Assembly: GCF_036323475.1 (NCBI RefSeq)
Contig: NZ_AP028934.1
Location: 1,364,001-1,428,000, forward strand
Length of the DNA stretch: 64,000 nucleotides
Reading direction: 5' to 3'
Source: Solobacterium moorei
Lineage (GTDB): Bacteria; Bacillota_I; Bacilli_A; Erysipelotrichales; Erysipelotrichaceae
A model generated the notes under the pieces. It was not told where the DNA came from. It saw nothing but the letters and a program-made list of their open reading frames with translations, and did no database searches. Shown here in pieces: positions 2-32,760 of the stretch. Position numbers and translations under genes: made by a program. Numbering within the stretch: the first letter of the stretch is position 1; each line of letters begins with the position of its first letter.

Positions 2-1882
2 TCATCTGTGGAGTGGGAACTATTAAATCCATCAAAAGCATTTGATCCTTCAACTATCTTAACAAGAGAGACGGTCGCGTACACTTTGATGAATCTAATC
101 TCAAGAACCCATGAAGGATCATCAGATCCAATTAAGGACTTACAAGACTGTAGTTATCCGGAACAGGTCAAGGCTGCTGTTGCAAGTGGTTTAATGAGCC
201 TTGATGAGCGACAACGCTTTCGTCCTAAAGAGGTAATTTCAAAAGAAGAGGCTTTTGGATATCTAACACAGGTTATTGACATTGTTAACAATCGTAAATT
301 TACCGATACAAAAACTACAGTCCAGTTAAAAGATGATGTTCAGTTTACAGATGAAGAGCCAAAACAATTTGATGAGGAAAAATTAACCGCTTTATTTAAA
401 TCAGATTCTTTGATACAAACTGGAATGTATATTACATATGATGATGCTTATTATCGTGTTTTAAAATGTGAGTATACAAATCAGGGGATTCTAACATGCT
501 TAGAACAAGTGAACATGGAAGATGTGATTGATCAGTTTGATATTCAAGGTGGCACTGATCTAGAGTTTAATCATGCAAAGATTTTTGACGGAAATGGGAA
601 TATTGTACAGGAAGGGACAGAACAGAGTCATTCTCTGTCCCTGATGTCAACTGGTCTAATCAATCATACATTTGATATGAAAGGCTTTCGTGTATCGTTA
701 AAGGGTACTACAAGTTCTCTTCGTGCGGAGGTTTCAAAACAATTACAAGTAGGTGGGCTCTTGTATGCAAATGCTACATTAGATAATTTACACATCCAAT
801 ACAAGTGGGATAAGGATGAAGACAGAATCCAATATGGCTACTTGAAAGCAGACTTCACTACTTCTGAGAATATTGGCTTACGCAATGGTATGTATAAAGA
901 GTTATATGGAGACTTCTCAAAACTAAATCCAAAAGATTTTATTAGTACAGTACAGAATATCTTTCAATCAAAACAAGAAGTTTTGACGGATACGATAACA
1001 CTATGTACAGTTAAGATTCCTTTGCCAAATGCACCAATGGTTTCGGTTGTGATGAAGATTAATTTAAATTTATATGCGACTGGTAAAGCAGAACTATCAT
1101 TTGTGCAGAATCATGTTGTAGGATGTGAAATCAGAAATGGAAATATGCGTATCATTTCTGATCATAGTAAGAAAGCTACCGCATCCATTCGGGCTGAGAC
1201 AGGTATCACGCTTGGAACTAATCTTTCACTACATGCATTCAATCAAAATGTCATGGATGCGGAAGTAGATGCAGGTGCAAAGGGTTATTTTAAAACTAGA
1301 ACATACCTATATAACGAAGAAGGGAAAGTAGAACCATATGATATTGATATACAGCCTGACTTGGTTGAAGAACTTTCAGAAGGAAACCCTAATGTCAAAG
1401 TATGTACCGAATTAAATGCGTATTGGTTATGTAATCTAAAACTCAATAGTAGCAATAGTCTTGTAGGAAGATTTGGTTTTGGTAGGAATATCGCAATTCT
1501 AAATGAATCGAATGCACCCTTGTTTCCAAAGGGGAAAGTTACCTACGAAAACTGGATGAGTGTAGATCATTGTAGTTGCGAAGATAGAGAAAAAGTACCA
1601 AATATAGAGTCAATACAAGTTAAAAAGAGAATTACTTTAAAAGATTATTCATTAATTGCTGGTGTTGGAGTTAATACACGTATACAAGTGTCAGGTCTTC
1701 CAGAAGGATATACTGTTGAAGATTTAGTATATACAAGCCAGAATACAGATATCACTGAAGTAAGTTCTGTGGGAGAAGTGATTGGTAAAAGACCAGGTGG
1801 TACAGATATTCTGATACAAACAAAAGATAAAAAGCATCTTGTGCATTGCCATATATTGGTTGTTGAGATAAATCGAAAATGA
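2..1882 (+). CDS. Surface protein with SLH-like start and Big_2-like end (5' truncated)
   Basis: The reading frame is open to the left window edge, so the true start is probably outside; the GTG at base 8 is only the first start-like codon. The first ~95 visible residues resemble S-layer-homology repeats (acidic, with 'AAVASGLM' and 'EVISKEEAFGYL'). A long middle part is not recognised. Residues ~540-620 look like a bacterial Ig-like (Big_2) fold, with 'SQNTDITEVSSVGEVIG' and 'PGGTDILI'. Known role of these modules: cell-surface attachment and display. The gene overlaps the EssC-like ATPase gene by four bases (ATGA), so it belongs to the secretion operon and may be an accessory or substrate protein (inference). 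No export signal is visible because the N-terminus is missing. Confidence 0.6.
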   Translation, partial: SSVEWELLNPSKAFDPSTILTRETVAYTLMNLISRTHEGSSDPIKDLQDCSYPEQVKAAVASGLMSLDERQRFRPKEVISKEEAFGYLTQVIDIVNNRKFTDTKTTVQLKDDVQFTDEEPKQFDEEKLTALFKSDSLIQTGMYITYDDAYYRVLKCEYTNQGILTCLEQVNMEDVIDQFDIQGGTDLEFNHAKIFDGNGNIVQEGTEQSHSLSLMSTGLINHTFDMKGFRVSLKGTTSSLRAEVSKQLQVGGLLYANATLDNLHIQYKWDKDEDRIQYGYLKADFTTSENIGLRNGMYKELYGDFSKLNPKDFISTVQNIFQSKQEVLTDTITLCTVKIPLPNAPMVSVVMKINLNLYATGKAELSFVQNHVVGCEIRNGNMRIISDHSKKATASIRAETGITLGTNLSLHAFNQNVMDAEVDAGAKGYFKTRTYLYNEEGKVEPYDIDIQPDLVEELSEGNPNVKVCTELNAYWLCNLKLNSSNSLVGRFGFGRNIAILNESNAPLFPKGKVTYENWMSVDHCSCEDREKVPNIESIQVKKRITLKDYSLIAGVGVNTRIQVSGLPEGYTVEDLVYTSQNTDITEVSSVGEVIGKRPGGTDILIQTKDKKHLVHCHILVVEINRK

Positions 1883-4800
1883 TTTTATATACCGAGTATA
1901 AAGATGAATTATGTTTGATATTGGTTGATGAGAATCGAGTAGAACATACAATATTCGGTTCTCATTTTACGTTATATCAGAAGGATAATTGTGTTGTAAT
2001 ACAAATCATTGAAGATGGTGTTTCTTATTTGTTGTATCACGAACAATCGTGTTTGATTCACGACATACGGTTTACTGCTATAGCTTTACTACAAGGTTGG
2101 AATCAATATAAGCCATATCTTTATCAGGATACGATAGTCATTGGTACAGTCATGAATGATATAACCGTTTCTACAGAACTATTAAATCGAAACGCAATTA
2201 CAATACATTTCGTTACAAAAGAAATTGAAGTGGATTCTTCCATTCATGCATATATGAATCAAAAGCGTATACATAATGTGTTTTATAAAGCAGGCGATTT
2301 ACTTGAAACATATTATCTACGAATTCAATTTGAGGATGATTTTATCATTGTAAATCAACCATCAAATAGCAATTGTCACTTAAGCTACTTTACTCCTGAG
2401 ACAACTGTATTATCTCCAATTAAATACGTAGAAAAAACAACAATCTATCAACCAGAAGTAGTCAATGAATATATATTGACAGTAGAAGAGCCTGAACATA
2501 TCAGTCATTACGAAAAAAGGTCTGTTATCTTCTCTGTAGGTCCAGCAATCACAATGAGTTTAGCATCCATGAGTGGTGCTTCCATCTCTATGTATCGCGG
2601 ATATATGAATGGTAGAGAGCTATTAGATATGTTACCGATGATTCTACTACCAAGTATGATGTTGTTAAGTACAATTCTTTGGAATCCCTTGCAGCAACTA
2701 CATGAGAAAAGAGAAAATCAGAAAAAGATAAGCATACGTAAAATGGAATATGAAGCTTACCTTGAACAATTAAAATCTAATATCGATAGAATTTACCAAT
2801 CATATATTAGTTCTACAATGAAACTATGTGTAAATAATGGTCAGGTATTACAACAACTATATCCTAAATGTATTTATCTTCCACTTGGTCATGCAAAAGG
2901 AGTTATCAAATATGTTTTTGAAAAGTCATTCCAATTTCAAAAAAATGATATTGCGTTTCAACAACATTTCAATGAAATTGTTAATTATGCAAGTTCGTTA
3001 GATGCACCATATCTTCTAAAGCTTCAAAGTGGTAATCATGTTGTTTTACATCAATTAGATGAATTTGTAGTTGATGCGCTTAGGTATATTTCTATGTCTT
3101 ATCGACCGCAGGATGTACTGATTTCTTGTCTAATTGATGCGAAAGATTTTATTCACTTTAGTTGGTTAAAAAAGATACCGCATATTTATCATAATGGTTT
3201 ACGTTGTATTTCTTCTTCAATCCATGACTTAAATGCAAAGACGCAAAACTTCATAGGTATAAAAGTATTGTTTAATTTTACGAATCAGTATCTCAGTGAA
3301 TTTAAAGAATGGATTACATTTGATACCATAGAACACTATCATGTGACACATTTACTGAATAGAGAAGGAGATATAGTTATCGTTCGTAATCACGAACAAA
3401 AGACAGTACATCGGTGTAAAGATTTCTATGAACGAATAAAAATTGATACACAACAAACATTGTTTTCTAAATATCATCTTACAACAAACAATCATTCTTT
3501 CTTTTCGATGTATGACGTTGATACGATTGAGGAATTAAATATTAGCGAAAGATGGTGCAATAGTGATATAGCAAAGTCAATGCAAATCCGTTTGGGGAAG
3601 GATGCCTATAATCAACCAATCTACTTTGATTTACATGAATGCAAGGATGGCCCGCATGGATTAATTGCAGGTACAACAGGCAGTGGAAAGAGTGAATTAA
3701 TTACAACATTACTTTTATCTTTGGCTATCTCTTTTTCCCCTAAGAACTTACAAATAGTATTAATTGATTTTAAAGGTGGTGGTGCTGGGTCTGTATTATG
3801 TTTAAAAGGACATGAATTACCGCATATTTGTGGCAATCTATCAAATCTTGATGTGGATGATATGAAACGTTCCTTACATGCACTAAAGAATATTTGTTCG
3901 TTTCGCGAAAAACTATTTAGAGAAGTATCCAATCATCTAGGATATCCAGTAATAAACTTAAACGCATATCGTAAGGCAATTTCAACAAATAGTGAATATC
4001 CTTCTTTAGCTGAACTTGTGATTGTAGTAGATGAATTTGCGGAACTTAAAAGAGAAAGACCAGAGTTTCTTGAGGAGCTGATTGTCGTTGCACGTATAGG
4101 AAGATCGTTGGGTATACATTTGATACTGGCAACACAAAAACCAGCAGGAATTGTAAATGATCAAATATGGGCAAATACGAACTTCCGTATATGTATGCGT
4201 GTTGCAGAGCGACAAGATTCAATGGAGCTTCTACATGATGCTAGAGCTGCTTCTTTACAAAAACCAGGAGAGTTCTATTTATCTAATGCAGGTGGGATTC
4301 AATATGGTATAGCAGGATACGCACATGCAAAGAAAGAACCGATACGGCATATCGAAATCTTAGATCAAGAAGGAAATATTGAAGCATCTTCTTCCTTTCA
4401 AAAGCGTCAACCAGCACAGATAACGCAAGTATTAAATGAAATACGTAAACTACATCCAAAATGTGTAAAACAATTATGGTTAAATCCTTTACCGTTATAT
4501 CCAGTTGATTTTGATGCAGAATTTTCAATTGGCTATATAGATGATTACTATTTATTTGAACAGCCAAAACTTATTTTAGATTTTAATGGTCATACTAGTT
4601 ATTTGTTTGTTGGTAAATCATATCAAGAAAGAGAGAATCTTATTCAACTCTTGTTGTATCGAATGGGTGAAAGAAACCAACATGTATTTATGATTGATGA
4701 TTTGTTTTGTAAAAATACAAGTGAAATAAATCTAATTCATTCAGATGAAGTAGATAACGTGTGTGAGTTATTTAGAAATCTACAAGATAGACAAGGTTCG

Positions 4801-5121
4801 TATTTGTTAATTACAGATTTGACAATATTTTTACAGAATGATTTCTATAAAGAACTTTTAATTAAACTTCTAGAAACAAATCAAAAGTATAATATTCACT
4901 TGGTAATATTAAATCAAAGTGTGGTAAATGTACCGTATCGCATTTTAACTCTTATTTCTTCTAAGATTAGTTTAAGCAATGATAACGTACAAGAAATACA
5001 AGCACTATTTTCTACTACGGAAAAATGTATTCAAAAGAAACCTGGTTATGGATTAGTGATGTTGCACCAACATGTACTTGAATGTAGTTTTTTTCAGATG
5101 GGAGATATTCATGGGTCGTAG
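1879..5121 (+). CDS. essC: EssC/YukB-like FtsK-SpoIIIE ATPase of a type VII secretion system, shortened
   Basis: The 1080-residue protein has an EssC layout. An FHA-like N-terminal half is followed by two hydrophobic segments around residues 215-275 and a coiled stretch (HEKRENQKK). An FtsK-type ATPase domain follows, with Walker A GTTGSGKSE near residue 600, IVLIDFKGGG, and Walker B LVIVVDEFAEL. A second ATPase-like domain (from ~residue 895) has a degenerate P-loop (LFVGKSYQEREN). EssC proteins are usually ~1450-1500 residues with three ATPase domains, so the third appears to be missing here. The family powers export of WXG100 proteins across the membrane. It starts inside the stop of the upstream gene and overlaps the YukD-like gene, so the three are one operon. 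No WXG100 gene is seen in the window. Confidence 0.85.
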   Translation: MILYTEYKDELCLILVDENRVEHTIFGSHFTLYQKDNCVVIQIIEDGVSYLLYHEQSCLIHDIRFTAIALLQGWNQYKPYLYQDTIVIGTVMNDITVSTELLNRNAITIHFVTKEIEVDSSIHAYMNQKRIHNVFYKAGDLLETYYLRIQFEDDFIIVNQPSNSNCHLSYFTPETTVLSPIKYVEKTTIYQPEVVNEYILTVEEPEHISHYEKRSVIFSVGPAITMSLASMSGASISMYRGYMNGRELLDMLPMILLPSMMLLSTILWNPLQQLHEKRENQKKISIRKMEYEAYLEQLKSNIDRIYQSYISSTMKLCVNNGQVLQQLYPKCIYLPLGHAKGVIKYVFEKSFQFQKNDIAFQQHFNEIVNYASSLDAPYLLKLQSGNHVVLHQLDEFVVDALRYISMSYRPQDVLISCLIDAKDFIHFSWLKKIPHIYHNGLRCISSSIHDLNAKTQNFIGIKVLFNFTNQYLSEFKEWITFDTIEHYHVTHLLNREGDIVIVRNHEQKTVHRCKDFYERIKIDTQQTLFSKYHLTTNNHSFFSMYDVDTIEELNISERWCNSDIAKSMQIRLGKDAYNQPIYFDLHECKDGPHGLIAGTTGSGKSELITTLLLSLAISFSPKNLQIVLIDFKGGGAGSVLCLKGHELPHICGNLSNLDVDDMKRSLHALKNICSFREKLFREVSNHLGYPVINLNAYRKAISTNSEYPSLAELVIVVDEFAELKRERPEFLEELIVVARIGRSLGIHLILATQKPAGIVNDQIWANTNFRICMRVAERQDSMELLHDARAASLQKPGEFYLSNAGGIQYGIAGYAHAKKEPIRHIEILDQEGNIEASSSFQKRQPAQITQVLNEIRKLHPKCVKQLWLNPLPLYPVDFDAEFSIGYIDDYYLFEQPKLILDFNGHTSYLFVGKSYQERENLIQLLLYRMGERNQHVFMIDDLFCKNTSEINLIHSDEVDNVCELFRNLQDRQGSYLLITDLTIFLQNDFYKELLIKLLETNQKYNIHLVILNQSVVNVPYRILTLISSKISLSNDNVQEIQALFSTTEKCIQKKPGYGLVMLHQHVLECSFFQMGDIHGS

Positions 5122-5406: not shown

Positions 5407-7104
5407 ATGACAAAATTTAATGATATGAAATATACCCGTCCTAACTTTGAAGAAACAAAGGCTAAGATGGAAGAACTTGTTTCAGAGATGAAACAGGCGA
5501 AGGATGCTGCAACATTTTTAGACGCATTCTGGCGTATGAACAAGTTGCGTCGTCATTTATATACAATGATTACACTTGTTAATATTCGTCACAGTATCAA
5601 TACAGCTGATGAGTTTTATGATGCGGAAAATAACTATTGGGATGAGACGGGTCCACAGTATTCTGTAATTGAAAACGAATTAGTAAAGGCAGTATTAGAG
5701 GCACCATTTAGAGAAGAATTATTAAAGGAAATTCCAGAGACATACTTCCAATTGAGTGAATGTTCTTTAAAGTCATTTGATCCTCGCATTGTTCCACTCA
5801 TGATTGAGGAAAATAAACTTACTAGTGAGTATGGAAAATTAAAGGCTTCTGCGAAGATCGAGTTTGATGGTGAAGTATTAAACCTTTCTGAAATCAGTGC
5901 TAAGGTTGATACACCTGATCGTGAAGTTCGTCGTAAGGCTTATGAAGCAAAGATGGCTTGGTTTAAGGAACATTCTGCTGAATTTGATGAAATCTACGAC
6001 AAGTTAGTAAAGGTTCGTCATCAGATGGCGAAAGAGCTTGGCTATGAAAATTACATTCAATTAGGTTACTATCGTATGAATCGTTTAGACTACAACGCAG
6101 ATATGGTGGCAAGATATCGTAAACAGATTCTTGACTATGTAACACCAGCGGCAGGTCGCTTATTTGAAAAGCAGAGAAAGCGTATTGGCTATGATAAGCT
6201 TGCTTACTATGACTTAGGTTTCTCCTTTAAGTCAGGCAATGCAAAGCCACATGGTACAGCAGAAGAATTAGTAGAGTATGCAGTGAAGATGTATCATGAG
6301 ATGTCACCTGAAACTGGCAAGTTCATTGATGTAATGAACTCAAATCAGTTATGGGATCTCGTAAGCCGTCCAAATAAGCAGATGGGTGGATATGAAACTG
6401 AAATTTATGAGTATGATGTACCATTTATCTTTAGCAATTTTAATGGAACATCTGGCGACGTTGATGTCTTAACTCACGAAGCAGGACACGCTTTCCAAGC
6501 ATACTTATCTGATCAGATTGAATTAATTGATGTAAAATGTCCAACAATGGAATCTGCAGAAATCGACTCCATGTCTATGGAATTCTTTGCGTATCCTTGG
6601 ATGGAGTTATTCTTTAAGGAAGAAACAGAGAAGTATAAGTTCTCTCATATGGCTGGTACAATTACATTCTTGCCATACGGTGCATTAGTGGATCATTACC
6701 AACATGAAGTATATGAACATCCAGAGATGACACCAGCAGAGCGTAAGGCATGCTGGAGAAGATTAGAAAAGATGTATATGCCTTATAAGGATTATGAAGA
6801 TTGCGATATCTTGGAAGAAGGTACATGGTGGTACCAACAGGGTCATATTTTCGAAAGCCCATTCTACTATATTGACTATACATTAGCACAAGTATGTGCT
6901 CAGCAGTTCTATATTCGTATGGATAAGAAGGATCCTACATACTGGGAAGACTATAAGAAGTTGTGCAGACTTGGTGGTACATTATCCTTTACAAAGCTTG
7001 TAAAGGAAGTGGGTATTCGTGTTCCATTTGAAGAAGGAACAGTGAAGGAAATTATTACTTACCTAGAAAATCATCTCAATAGTATTGATGATACAGCGTT
7101 ATAG
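5407..7104 (+). CDS. M3-family oligoendopeptidase (PepF type)
   Basis: A cytosolic zinc metallopeptidase of about 565 residues that cuts short peptides. The zinc motif HEAGH is seen in 'LTHEAGHAFQAYL', followed ~25 residues later by the third ligand region 'ESAEIDSMSMEFFA', as in family M3. The start at 5407 is chosen because a GGAGG site precedes it by 8 bases; a frame 39 bases longer lacks one. Length matches clostridial M3 oligoendopeptidases. It is monocistronic, with a hairpin terminator after it. An antisense-oriented lysine riboswitch transcript ends just beyond its 3' end. Confidence 0.93.
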   Translation: MTKFNDMKYTRPNFEETKAKMEELVSEMKQAKDAATFLDAFWRMNKLRRHLYTMITLVNIRHSINTADEFYDAENNYWDETGPQYSVIENELVKAVLEAPFREELLKEIPETYFQLSECSLKSFDPRIVPLMIEENKLTSEYGKLKASAKIEFDGEVLNLSEISAKVDTPDREVRRKAYEAKMAWFKEHSAEFDEIYDKLVKVRHQMAKELGYENYIQLGYYRMNRLDYNADMVARYRKQILDYVTPAAGRLFEKQRKRIGYDKLAYYDLGFSFKSGNAKPHGTAEELVEYAVKMYHEMSPETGKFIDVMNSNQLWDLVSRPNKQMGGYETEIYEYDVPFIFSNFNGTSGDVDVLTHEAGHAFQAYLSDQIELIDVKCPTMESAEIDSMSMEFFAYPWMELFFKEETEKYKFSHMAGTITFLPYGALVDHYQHEVYEHPEMTPAERKACWRRLEKMYMPYKDYEDCDILEEGTWWYQQGHIFESPFYYIDYTLAQVCAQQFYIRMDKKDPTYWEDYKKLCRLGGTLSFTKLVKEVGIRVPFEEGTVKEIITYLENHLNSIDDTAL

Positions 7105-7111
7105 CTAAACG

Positions 7112-7145
7112 AAAAGGACTTGCATGCATGCAAGCCCTTTTATTA
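7112..7145. terminator. Rho-independent terminator of the M3 peptidase gene, probably bidirectional
   Basis: An 11-bp stem with one mismatch (AAAGG-A-CTTGC pairing with GCAAG-C-CCTTT) is closed by a short TGCA-rich loop and followed by T residues. The complementary strand also shows a stem followed by TTTT, so it can stop transcripts arriving from the right as well. Confidence 0.8.
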
Positions 7146-7159
7146 AGCGTTTAATAAAT

Positions 7160-7186
7160 AAAACCCACATGTAACATAGGGGTTTT
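7160..7186 (-). terminator. Terminator following the lysine riboswitch
   Basis: On the minus strand AAAACCC and GGGTTTT form a perfect 7-bp stem around a 13-base loop, followed by TTTTATTTATT. It follows the L-box aptamer directly, as expected for the expression platform of a lysine riboswitch that ends transcription when lysine is bound. Confidence 0.75.
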
Positions 7187-7196
7187 GTAATAATAA

Positions 7197-7360
7197 GTCA
7201 TAGCGCCACTTCATGTTCATGAAGGAGTGATATAGATATTCTCTATATCCCCACGAGATAAACTTGCCAGTTTATACGTTCGGCGACAGTTACCTTTCGT
7301 ACATATCATCGCTTGCTAGTTCCATACAGTACTCTTTTGCGTTGCTACCTCTATTCGGTT
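7197..7360 (-). ncRNA. Lysine riboswitch (L box) with no downstream gene
   Basis: Read on the minus strand, the region carries the L-box landmarks in order: ATAGAGGTAGCAACGC, AGAGTA, GAAAGG, CGCCGAA, a P4-like hairpin ATAAACT/AGTTTAT, a second hairpin GATATAG/CTATATC, and the closing GTGGCGCTAT that pairs with the first block. This order and wording match the known lysC-type lysine aptamer. A terminator follows at once. Downstream on the same strand there is only the antisense of the peptidase gene and that gene's bidirectional terminator, so no lysine gene is controlled in cis within this window. Confidence 0.85.
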
Positions 7361-7374
7361 TTTACGTTAAATAT

Positions 7375-7401
7375 ACTCTTACATTTGAAATTGAATGTCA
7401 A
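7375..7401 (-). promoter_or_regulatory. Candidate promoter of the lysine riboswitch transcript
   Basis: A consensus -35 hexamer TTGACA (minus strand, 7396-7401) overlaps the end of the TtcA-like gene. A TATATT -10-like hexamer lies about 20 bases downstream; the spacing is long, so the -10 is uncertain. If real, the riboswitch RNA is made independently of the upstream gene. Confidence 0.45.
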
Positions 7402-7402
7402 G

Positions 7403-8170
7403 TTATTTATTTGAATTTTCCCATTCTTCGCCTTTGACCCAGAGTTTGATTTGTTCTTGGTTGGATAAGGAAGTTAGGAAGTTCTTTTTTGCAAATGGAT
7501 ATGTTTGATATATATTTGCTAGTAATTCTTTTGTATCTTGACGCTTTGTAAAGCCATCATTAGGACAAGTACTCTTTACAACAGGTAACTGTTCGTGTCT
7601 AACAGTATTTTTGATTTCATCCTCATAGACATACACAAACGGACGGATGAAACCCATACCAGTATTCTTGAGATACATTGCAGGTGTGAAGGTTGAGATA
7701 CGTCCTCCATAGATCATGTTCATAAACAAGGTTTCAATTGCGTCATCAGCGTGATGTGCAAAGGCTGTCTTATTACAGTTATATTCTTGTGCTGCTTTGA
7801 CGATCGCTCCTTTTTTAAGGGTTGAGCAGAGTGAACATTGGATGTTTCCGTTTTTCTTGCTAGGGTGCAACTGTAAAATATCATAGAGTTTTGTAGGATA
7901 GTCGATATATTCGATATTATGTTTCTTCATAAACTTACGTACTTCTGTAAAGTCCATATCAGAAAAGCCCATCTCAAGATGAATTCCAATAACAGAGAAT
8001 TCTTTTCCACTTATGCGTTTTGCGGCTTTTTGGTAAATGGATAGTGCATATAGTAGTAGGATGCTATCTTTACCACCTGAGACGCCGACACAAATACGGT
8101 CTCCATTTTGGATTAAGTTATAATCTGTATCTGCTTTATAGATAGCACCTATAATCTTTTTTAGTGACAT
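7403..8170 (-). CDS. TtcA-like tRNA thiolation PP-loop ATPase
   Basis: The 255-residue protein has the PP-loop 'GVSGGKDS' near residue 30, a CSLC cysteine pair near residue 117 and a further cysteine in 'STCPND', the arrangement of TtcA-type enzymes that adenylate a tRNA base and exchange oxygen for sulfur using an iron-sulfur cluster. The specific base (C32 in TtcA) is inferred from family. It has a GAGGAG ribosome site and a divergent promoter shared with truB. The lysine riboswitch lies directly after its stop codon. Confidence 0.8.
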   Translation of the reverse strand: MSLKKIIGAIYKADTDYNLIQNGDRICVGVSGGKDSILLLYALSIYQKAAKRISGKEFSVIGIHLEMGFSDMDFTEVRKFMKKHNIEYIDYPTKLYDILQLHPSKKNGNIQCSLCSTLKKGAIVKAAQEYNCNKTAFAHHADDAIETLFMNMIYGGRISTFTPAMYLKNTGMGFIRPFVYVYEDEIKNTVRHEQLPVVKSTCPNDGFTKRQDTKELLANIYQTYPFAKKNFLTSLSNQEQIKLWVKGEEWENSNK

Positions 8171-29877: not shown

Positions 29878-30101
29878 TAGAATTTCATAGAAATCGATAA
29901 CAAAGGGTAAGTAGATATTGGCTGTGTCGTAGAGAGAAGATGTTTGGTGAAAATCTTCCATAAGTGATATTGAAGCTTCCTTTAACAGAGTGCTTAATCA
30001 GCAACGTATCTCTACGTTACAGAGCAATTAAGGTGCGCACATTTTGTGCGAATCAGGATGGTACCGCGTGTTAACGTTCCTGGATATGGGAACGTTTTTT
30101 A
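29878..30101 (+). promoter_or_regulatory. Alanine T-box riboswitch with promoter, before alaS
   Basis: An extended -10 TGTTAGAAT (ending 29883) is followed by a T-box leader. It has stem I apical motif AGATGTTTGGTGAAAATCTT, a candidate specifier GCT (29975-29977), the T-box core GGATGGTACCGCG (30056-30068), and a terminator AACGTTCC/GGAACGTT with T6 (30073-30101). Uncharged tRNA-Ala would allow read-through. The -10 is identical to that of the trpS leader. Confidence 0.92.
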
Positions 30102-30120
30102 TTTGTTCAGGAGGAAAACA

Positions 30121-32760
30121 ATGGAAAAGCAATATCGACTCAGTGGAAATGAAGTCAGACAAAAGTTCTTGGATTTCTTTGCGTCAAAGGGTTGTATGAT
30201 CGAACCAGGCGCAAGTCTTATTCCACATAATGATCCAACACTGTTATGGATTAATGCTGGAGTATCAGCGTTAAAGAAGTATTTTGATGGTTCAGAAAAG
30301 CCAGCTTCCAATCGTATCTGTAATGCCCAGAAATCAATTCGTACGAACGATATTGAAAATGTGGGTCGTACAGCACGTCACCATACATTCTTTGAAATGT
30401 TGGGTAATTTCTCAATTGGTGATTACTTTAAGAAAGAAGCGATTACTTGGGCTTGGGAATTCTTAACATCTCCAGAATGGATTGGTTTTGATCCTAAGCG
30501 TTTATATGTAACTGTTTATCCGGATGATGACGAAGCATATAACCAATGGGTTCAGGTAGGTATGATTCCTAGCCACATCCGTCGTACAGAAGATAACTTC
30601 TGGGAAATTGGCCGTGGCCCTGGTGGACCAGATACAGAGTTGTACTATGACCGTGGAGAAAAGTATGACCCTGAAGGCATTGGCGAAAAGTTATTCTTTG
30701 AGGATTTAGAGAATGACCGTTATATCGAAGTTTGGAATATTGTATTCTCTCAATATGATTGCCGTCCTGGTGAAGTTAATCGCCATGAGTACAAAGAATT
30801 ACCTCAGAAGAATATTGATACAGGTATGGGTCTAGAACGTCTTGTATGTTTGATTCAAGATGGTGAAACAAACTTTGATACTGACTTATTCTTACCAATT
30901 ATCCATGCGACAGAGAAGTATGCTAAACACTCTTACAGTGAGAAAGAATATAAGATGGCATATCGCGTTATCGCTGACCATATCCGTACAGTCACTTTTG
31001 CGATTGCGGATGGTGCGATGTTCTCTAACGAAGGTCGCGGATATGTATTACGTCGTGTATTGCGTCGTGCTGTACGCTACGGTATTAAGCTAGGTATCGA
31101 TGGTGCTTTCATGTATAAACTTGTAAAGGTTGTAGCAGATAATATGATCTCTTACTATCCATATTTACAGGAAAAGATTTCATTGATTGAAAAGTTAGTG
31201 AAGCAGGAAGAAGAATCTTTCCACAAGACATTAGCAAACGGTGAAGCACTTTTACAGAATGCATTGGCTGAACATGCGGATACTAAGATCTTACCTGGCG
31301 AAGTGATGTTCAAGTTATATGACACTTATGGATATCCAAAGGAACTTACTACAGAGATTGCGGAAGAAGAAGGCTACCGTGTTGATTTAGAAGGCTTTGA
31401 TAAAGAAATGCAGGCTCAGAAGACACGCGCAAGAGAAGCACGTGGAAATATTCAATCCATGCATGGTCAATCTGCTGACTTAATGGATTTTACACAAGAA
31501 AGTAAATTTACAGGTTATACAGATACACATTCTAGGGGTAAGGTTATTGGCTTATTCAAGGATGGTGTACGTGTTGATACATTAACAGACGAGGGTGATA
31601 TTATCCTTGATGAAACATGTTTCTATGCGGAAAGTGGCGGACAGTGTGCTGATACTGGTGTTGTTTGGAATGATCACTTTAAGGCAAATGTAACGAATGT
31701 ACAAAAGGCTCCACATAAACAACCGCTACATCACATTACAATCGTTGAGGGTACAGTATCAGAAGGGGATGTATTAGAAGGTGAATACGACTATGAAAAA
31801 CGTCAACGTACACGTGCAAACCATAGTTCATTACACTTATTACAGGCTGCTTTAAAGAAGGTGTTAGGTGATCATATTGCCCAGGCTGGTTCTTATAACT
31901 GTGCTGAGTATGGAAGATTTGACTTTACACACTTTGAAAAGCCTACAGAAGAACAATTGAATGAGGTTGAACGTCTTGTCAATAAACAGATTGCTTTAGC
32001 ACAACCAATTGTAACTGAAGTGATGGCTGTAGAAGCTGCGAAGAACTCTGGTGCGATTGCATTGTTTGATGAGAAGTATGGTGATACAGTACGTGTTGTA
32101 TCAATGGGAGATTTCTCTAAGGAATTCTGCGGTGGTACACACGCAAATAATACGGCTGATTTATGCGTGTTTAAGATTACATCTGAAGAATCTATCGGAT
32201 CTGGTATTAGACGTATTACATCTGAAACAAAGTTTGATGCATATAAGGATTTCAAGGATGAGGAGCAGTATTTACTTGAATGTGCGAAGTTAATGAAGCT
32301 ACAATCTTGGCAAGGATTTAAAGAGAAGTTAGTCGCTTTACAAGAAGAAAATGCACAGCTTCGCAAGGATAATGATGCACATAAACAAGCAGAACTATTA
32401 TCTTCTGCGGATACAGCAGTACAGAAGGCTGAAACCATTAATGGCTTATCCTGCGTACTACTTAGCTTAGATGGCTTTGATACAAATAGCTTAAAGACAT
32501 ATGCTGAAAATGTTCGCAATAAGCTTGTGGATGGATTTGTATTCGTATCTAATACAACAGATGGTAAAGCGACATTTGTATGTGCTAGTTCGAAAACTGC
32601 AATTGCCAAGGGCAAGAAGGCTGGCGATATTGTGAAGGCTGCTGCACAGTTGACTGGTGGTAATGGTGGTGGTAGACCTGACATGGCGCAGGCTGGCGGT
32701 AAGGATACTTCTAAAGTACAAGAAGCACATGCATTAGTAAGAGAAATTCTTGCACAATAA
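30121..32760 (+). CDS. alaS: Alanyl-tRNA synthetase
   Basis: A class II synthetase of 879 residues, the usual length. The aminoacylation domain starts 'SGNEVRQKFLDFFASKGC', the editing domain has 'NHSSLHLLQAAL' and 'CGGTHANNT', and the DHHA1 end has 'GGNGGGRPDMAQAGG'. The ATG at 30121 follows an AGGAGG site placed right after the T-box terminator; frames starting earlier run through the leader and are not genes. Confidence 0.97.
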   Translation: MEKQYRLSGNEVRQKFLDFFASKGCMIEPGASLIPHNDPTLLWINAGVSALKKYFDGSEKPASNRICNAQKSIRTNDIENVGRTARHHTFFEMLGNFSIGDYFKKEAITWAWEFLTSPEWIGFDPKRLYVTVYPDDDEAYNQWVQVGMIPSHIRRTEDNFWEIGRGPGGPDTELYYDRGEKYDPEGIGEKLFFEDLENDRYIEVWNIVFSQYDCRPGEVNRHEYKELPQKNIDTGMGLERLVCLIQDGETNFDTDLFLPIIHATEKYAKHSYSEKEYKMAYRVIADHIRTVTFAIADGAMFSNEGRGYVLRRVLRRAVRYGIKLGIDGAFMYKLVKVVADNMISYYPYLQEKISLIEKLVKQEEESFHKTLANGEALLQNALAEHADTKILPGEVMFKLYDTYGYPKELTTEIAEEEGYRVDLEGFDKEMQAQKTRAREARGNIQSMHGQSADLMDFTQESKFTGYTDTHSRGKVIGLFKDGVRVDTLTDEGDIILDETCFYAESGGQCADTGVVWNDHFKANVTNVQKAPHKQPLHHITIVEGTVSEGDVLEGEYDYEKRQRTRANHSSLHLLQAALKKVLGDHIAQAGSYNCAEYGRFDFTHFEKPTEEQLNEVERLVNKQIALAQPIVTEVMAVEAAKNSGAIALFDEKYGDTVRVVSMGDFSKEFCGGTHANNTADLCVFKITSEESIGSGIRRITSETKFDAYKDFKDEEQYLLECAKLMKLQSWQGFKEKLVALQEENAQLRKDNDAHKQAELLSSADTAVQKAETINGLSCVLLSLDGFDTNSLKTYAENVRNKLVDGFVFVSNTTDGKATFVCASSKTAIAKGKKAGDIVKAAAQLTGGNGGGRPDMAQAGGKDTSKVQEAHALVREILAQ

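Follow-up and report, generated by a model that had tools for sequence, protein, structure and literature searches.

Lysine riboswitches that precede amino-acid ABC transporters, of the lysX-lysY type, have been described (PMC5584792). In the usual OFF switch of the class, as described for Listeria, bound lysine goes with formation of P1 and the terminator, and the lysine-free state with the antiterminator (PMC3610012). The Listeria monocytogenes element LysRS, located between lmo0799 and lmo0798, terminates transcription of the upstream lmo0799 (PMC3179153, PMC3610012), and SreA of Listeria is a terminated SAM riboswitch that acts on the prfA mRNA (PMC3179153).

Here we analyse a lysine riboswitch of Solobacterium moorei, found in a 64,000-nucleotide stretch of contig NZ_AP028934.1 (hereafter the window); a limited literature search found no paper describing this locus. 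The element shares its aptamer family with the lysX-lysY-type riboswitches, and its orthologues in 16 genus-mates have an SBP-permease-ATPase operon downstream and a terminator/antiterminator platform, whereas the window copy has no downstream gene and has lost the antiterminator element. To judge from its sequence, it lacks two defining features of a working cis-acting attenuator, the regulated gene and the antiterminator. Like LysRS, it stands behind an upstream gene with no other terminator, so that its hairpin would end the transcript of that gene; LysRS, however, still controls a lysine permease and can antiterminate. As with SreA, release of a short riboswitch RNA that ends at the terminator is conceivable in principle, but SreA has a downstream operon and a demonstrated mRNA target, whereas the window element is known from sequence alone. 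We consider it very likely that the element descends from a transcription-attenuating lysine riboswitch and is now a decaying relic: its operon was deleted, its antiterminator was lost, and its terminator, by now independent of lysine, may still end ttcA transcripts.

The aptamer and its immediate surroundings

Table 1. Features of the riboswitch locus, in window coordinates
Feature	Positions	Strand	Basis and remarks
Convergent M3 family oligoendopeptidase	5416..7104	+	TIGR02289, 612.6 bits, cut-off 442
Bidirectional terminator hairpin, common to the convergent peptidase gene	7113..7140	.	hairpin search
Approximate junction of the missing SBP-permease-ATPase operon	7141..7151	.	comparison with L082 6034-8361 (G083)
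Riboswitch terminator, AAAACCCCTATGTTACATGTGGGTTTT and T-rich tail	7152..7186	-	AAAACCC..GGGTTTT and ATTTATT; AUAGC of relatives missing
Lysine riboswitch aptamer	7193..7361	-	RF00168, leave-one-out and pair counts; junction core intact
P1 3' strand, GCTATGAC; in relatives also 5' half of the antiterminator	7197..7204	-	platform comparison
TTGACA, putative -35 box of the ancestral riboswitch promoter	7396..7401	-	same place in sister and most relatives
TtcA-like gene (PP-loop family)	7403..8170	-	ORF; PF01171; best NCBIfam match TtcA, below its cut-off

The original prediction, made from the letters of the window, described a complete L-box aptamer and terminator behind the TtcA-like gene on the minus strand, and named the covariance model of the lysine family as a check. 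That model gave a significant match over its full length (positions 1-182), scoring 67.6 bits (gathering score, 30; E 1.7e-15), and a terminator hairpin follows (Table 1); by sequence and structure, the element is to be regarded as a member of RF00168. The free fold of the whole unit was no better than shuffles (z -0.57), a test that is uninformative for riboswitches, and the covariance model and the platform comparison were used in its place. A search of the 2.6-Mb single-contig genome with the Rfam model, with which a separate motif search agreed, found no second lysine riboswitch; this and the other whole-genome claims below rest on fast genome searches whose first pass was not exhaustive. 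The riboswitch of one relative, G063 (L111 2358-2529; L187, G063:C21; 71.8 bits), escaped both the fast Rfam filters and the genome search and came to light in permissive mode, so that absence calls from such searches are not proof.

The aptamer begins 41 nt 3' of the ttcA-like stop codon, and no terminator was found between the two. The intrinsic terminator behind it consists of a hairpin of -8.6 kcal/mol with a U-rich tail, and a stronger, bidirectional hairpin lies approximately 20 nt further downstream, where the original prediction had placed it. Also in line with that prediction, which had seen no lysine gene in cis, the ORF list contains no frame of at least 80 aa between the aptamer and the stop codon of the M3 peptidase, whose match is to TIGR02289 ('M3_not_pepF') and not to PepF proper. 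The consensus -35 box noted at the outset was confirmed as a TTGACA that starts no more than two bases from the ttcA-like stop, but the promoter as a whole looks weak: at a spacing of 17, the best -10 candidate is GAGTAT, which scores 9/12 compared to 10-12/12 in nearly all relatives, and no good -10 box was found 16-18 nt from the TTGACA, with TATATT occurring only at a spacing of 20.

Comparison with the sister species and genus

At least one lysine riboswitch was detected in 56 of the 60 relatives. These riboswitches split into subtypes, and the window copy belongs to the one carrying the motif TAGAGGTNGCGNNGCA. The sister species G083 (contig JALENJ010000054.1, labelled Erysipelotrichaceae bacterium SUG162; locus L082), with identities to the window of 89% for TtcA, 84% for the M3 peptidase and 72% for TruB, has the order truB(-), ttcA(+), riboswitch, SBP, permease, ATPase, M3 peptidase(-). 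Its operon of about 2.3 kb (L082 6034-8361) encodes a family-3 amino-acid binding protein (PF00497), a permease (PF00528) and an ABC ATPase (PF00005); the best subfamily match of the binding protein, below its cut-off, is lysine/arginine/ornithine-binding. Moreover, the same subtype precedes the same ABC operon in 15 other genus-mates (cut by the contig end in two of them), and a position directly behind ttcA, as in G083, recurs in G063, G066, G087, G060 and G005. A regulated lysine biosynthesis or transport gene directly downstream of the aptamer, present in the sister and these 15 genus-mates, is absent from the window. This synteny indicates that the window locus is the ancestral locus minus the SBP-permease-ATPase operon, a gene loss that the aligned loci display directly. 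A lost transporter or lysC had been among the original suggestions; the missing genes are those of the ABC transporter, not lysC. The synteny check put forward with them found the operon in the sister exactly behind the aptamer, and where a decayed lysine gene in relatives had been expected to mark a plain relic, the intact transporter of the sister species serves the same end.

An assembly artefact is unlikely, given that the assembly consists of a single contig and the flanking sequences meet cleanly at the terminators. A possible remnant of the end of the ATPase, seen at the junction (ATTAAACGC, compared with ATTAAATGC in G083), was too short to mean anything. Separately, one relative has a second lysine riboswitch of the same subtype with a changed P1 (L044, G035:C71:6670-6841; ACAAG with CATTGT), followed by a different ORF that is cut by the contig end.

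Loss of the antiterminator and signs of wear in the aptamer

The expression platforms of the relatives delineate what the window copy is missing. In relatives, the P1 3' strand GCUAUNAC pairs with GUNAUAGC in the terminator to form the antiterminator. Within the genus, the pairing is between the P1 3' strand GCUAUUAC and GUGAUAGC or GUAAUAGC in the terminator, and in the neighbouring family between GCUAUUAA and UUAAUAGC, or GCGUUAUC and GAUAACG(C). A terminator segment complementary to the P1 3' strand is present in nearly all relatives, and because both segments change together between lineages, they are marked as the antiterminator. In the alignment, the terminator of the window copy is kept but is devoid of AUAGC (ACCCCUAUGUUACAUGUGGGU compared to ACCCGUUUGUAAUAGCAAUCGGGU in the sister). 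Of 31 duplexes between the P1 3' strand and the terminator, that of the window is the weakest and does not exceed what shuffled terminators give. Its antiterminated fold is the weakest of 30 (-2.4 compared to -4.2 to -10.2 kcal/mol), although a few relatives (G002, G008 and G035) likewise have a weak computed antiterminator. The loss of complementarity can be read from the alignment itself, and the antiterminator that would compete with the terminator is, on this comparison, lost in the window copy.

The aptamer shows slighter changes. Its junction motifs are kept, with one mismatch in P2 (near 7343) and one in the small L2 stem. Both mismatches are unique to the window among 28 sequences, the two helices being intact in all 27 relatives, although this helix test was chosen after the alignment had been seen, and the window is no extreme case when the full structure is counted. 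Of the six changes assignable to the window branch, five fall in columns that are identical in 13 of 13 outgroups, compared to one of five on the sister branch. Each of these signs of wear (antiterminator, helices, -10 box and branch changes) is modest alone; together, they describe a switch that is starting to decay and whose output part is lost. Between window and sister, the aptamer is 85% identical, whereas the four-fold sites of ttcA and the peptidase are 47-53% identical, which suggests that selection acted on the aptamer during most of the period since the two diverged. The operon deletion is probably more recent than the split between window and sister. The slightness of the decay, seen in one genome of the species, may reflect a recent deletion or some remaining weak selection.

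In the ancestor, transcription from the TTGACA promoter, together with read-through from ttcA, would have run into the aptamer. With lysine bound, P1, which holds GCUAU, would have formed and the terminator would have stopped transcription; without lysine, the P1 3' strand (GCUAU) would have invaded the terminator, and the SBP-permease-ATPase operon would have been transcribed. In the window lineage, the operon was presumably deleted between the U-tract of the riboswitch terminator and the terminator of the peptidase, after which the switch would have begun to decay, with AUAGC gone, two aptamer helices mismatched and the -10 box poor. We infer that the remaining RNA terminates with or without lysine. 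As ttcA and the aptamer are not separated by any other terminator, the riboswitch hairpin may still define the 3' end of ttcA transcripts, with the bidirectional hairpin as a backup.

The case is ordinary but instructive. It offers a clean example of a riboswitch that outlived its gene, with the sister presenting the complete operon and the window the leader after the deletion, and with the antiterminator lost but the core of the aptamer still intact. Some gene-less members of known riboswitch classes are accounted for by such relics. The genus furthermore supplies about 30 expression platforms for comparison, in which the covarying antiterminator is clear.

Lysine uptake and possible alternative roles of the element

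Relocation of the operon within the window genome was rejected, as no homologue of the G083 binding protein was found there at E 0.001. The genome yielded no PF00497 member, of which G083, G070 and G085 have one or two, and no PF13520 amino-acid permease; genus-mates keep both PF00497 and PF13520. A lysine biosynthesis context for the riboswitch was likewise rejected, since the genome searches found no DapA, and the best LysA candidate, a gene next to one with an adenylation domain, reached 178 bits where the cut-off is 297.9. Given that DapA, LysA above cut-off and PF13520 were not found whereas four OppA-type peptide-binding proteins were, the window bacterium seems to have abandoned the uptake of free lysine, and we infer that it takes up lysine as peptides. 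Uptake of free amino acids looks to have been lost broadly in this genome, a wider pattern into which the loss of the transporter fits. As a separate observation, a sub-cut-off LysA-like PLP decarboxylase follows an adenylation-domain gene (L184 2619-5320; G000:C1:178618-181319), a pair that perhaps belongs to a small peptide or amine pathway.

Against this background, we weighed whether the element still senses lysine. It could be a retained lysine-responsive 3'-UTR element of ttcA, in which high lysine would end transcripts at the riboswitch terminator and low lysine would make them about 50 nt longer, altering the stability of the ttcA mRNA. The missing terminator between ttcA and the aptamer, the conserved aptamer core and the Listeria precedent of a lysine riboswitch as the only terminator of the upstream gene (PMC3179153) are in favour of this option. 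Nevertheless, the antiterminator pairing is lost, and with the second terminator approximately 20 nt downstream, both outcomes would differ little. To our knowledge, moreover, no link connects lysine and TtcA, a protein of tRNA thiolation, and we regard such a switch as very unlikely. It is similarly improbable, and slightly more so, that the element was kept after the operon loss because it now works alone, as an sRNA that binds lysine or as a 3' end of ttcA that depends on lysine, the bacterium itself having given up free lysine uptake.

A free-standing lysine-sensing sRNA acting in trans could draw on the -35 box and terminator of the element, which would yield an RNA of about 200 nt, and on the example of SreA (PMC3179153); however, the promoter, the antiterminator and two helices look relaxed, and in all relatives the element is employed in cis, ahead of a transporter, which leaves this reading very improbable. 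Relics of this kind are a warning against calling each gene-less riboswitch a regulatory small RNA. Antisense control of the M3 peptidase through read-through of the riboswitch RNA can be given almost no credence: the genes converge, and read-through would be antisense to the 3' end of the peptidase gene, but two successive terminators precede the end of its ORF, and relatives have the transporter operon in between, making the neighbourhood a by-product of the deletion.

Collectively, among the four options of the original prediction, the sister operon and the lost antiterminator favour a relic of a lost transporter; antisense control falls away, as both terminators come before the peptidase ORF, and the sRNA and the 3'-UTR switch are left without positive evidence.

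Two further loci of the window were recorded. Positions 1879-5121 encode a 1080-aa ATPase that resembles EssC of type VII secretion (TIGR03928, 345 bits, under the cut-off); its neighbours are a short ORF and one of 624 aa that matches no NCBIfam model. At 29888-30084, a T-box leader (RF00230, 95 bits) immediately precedes a large ORF (30046-32760) whose product resembles alanyl-tRNA synthetase.
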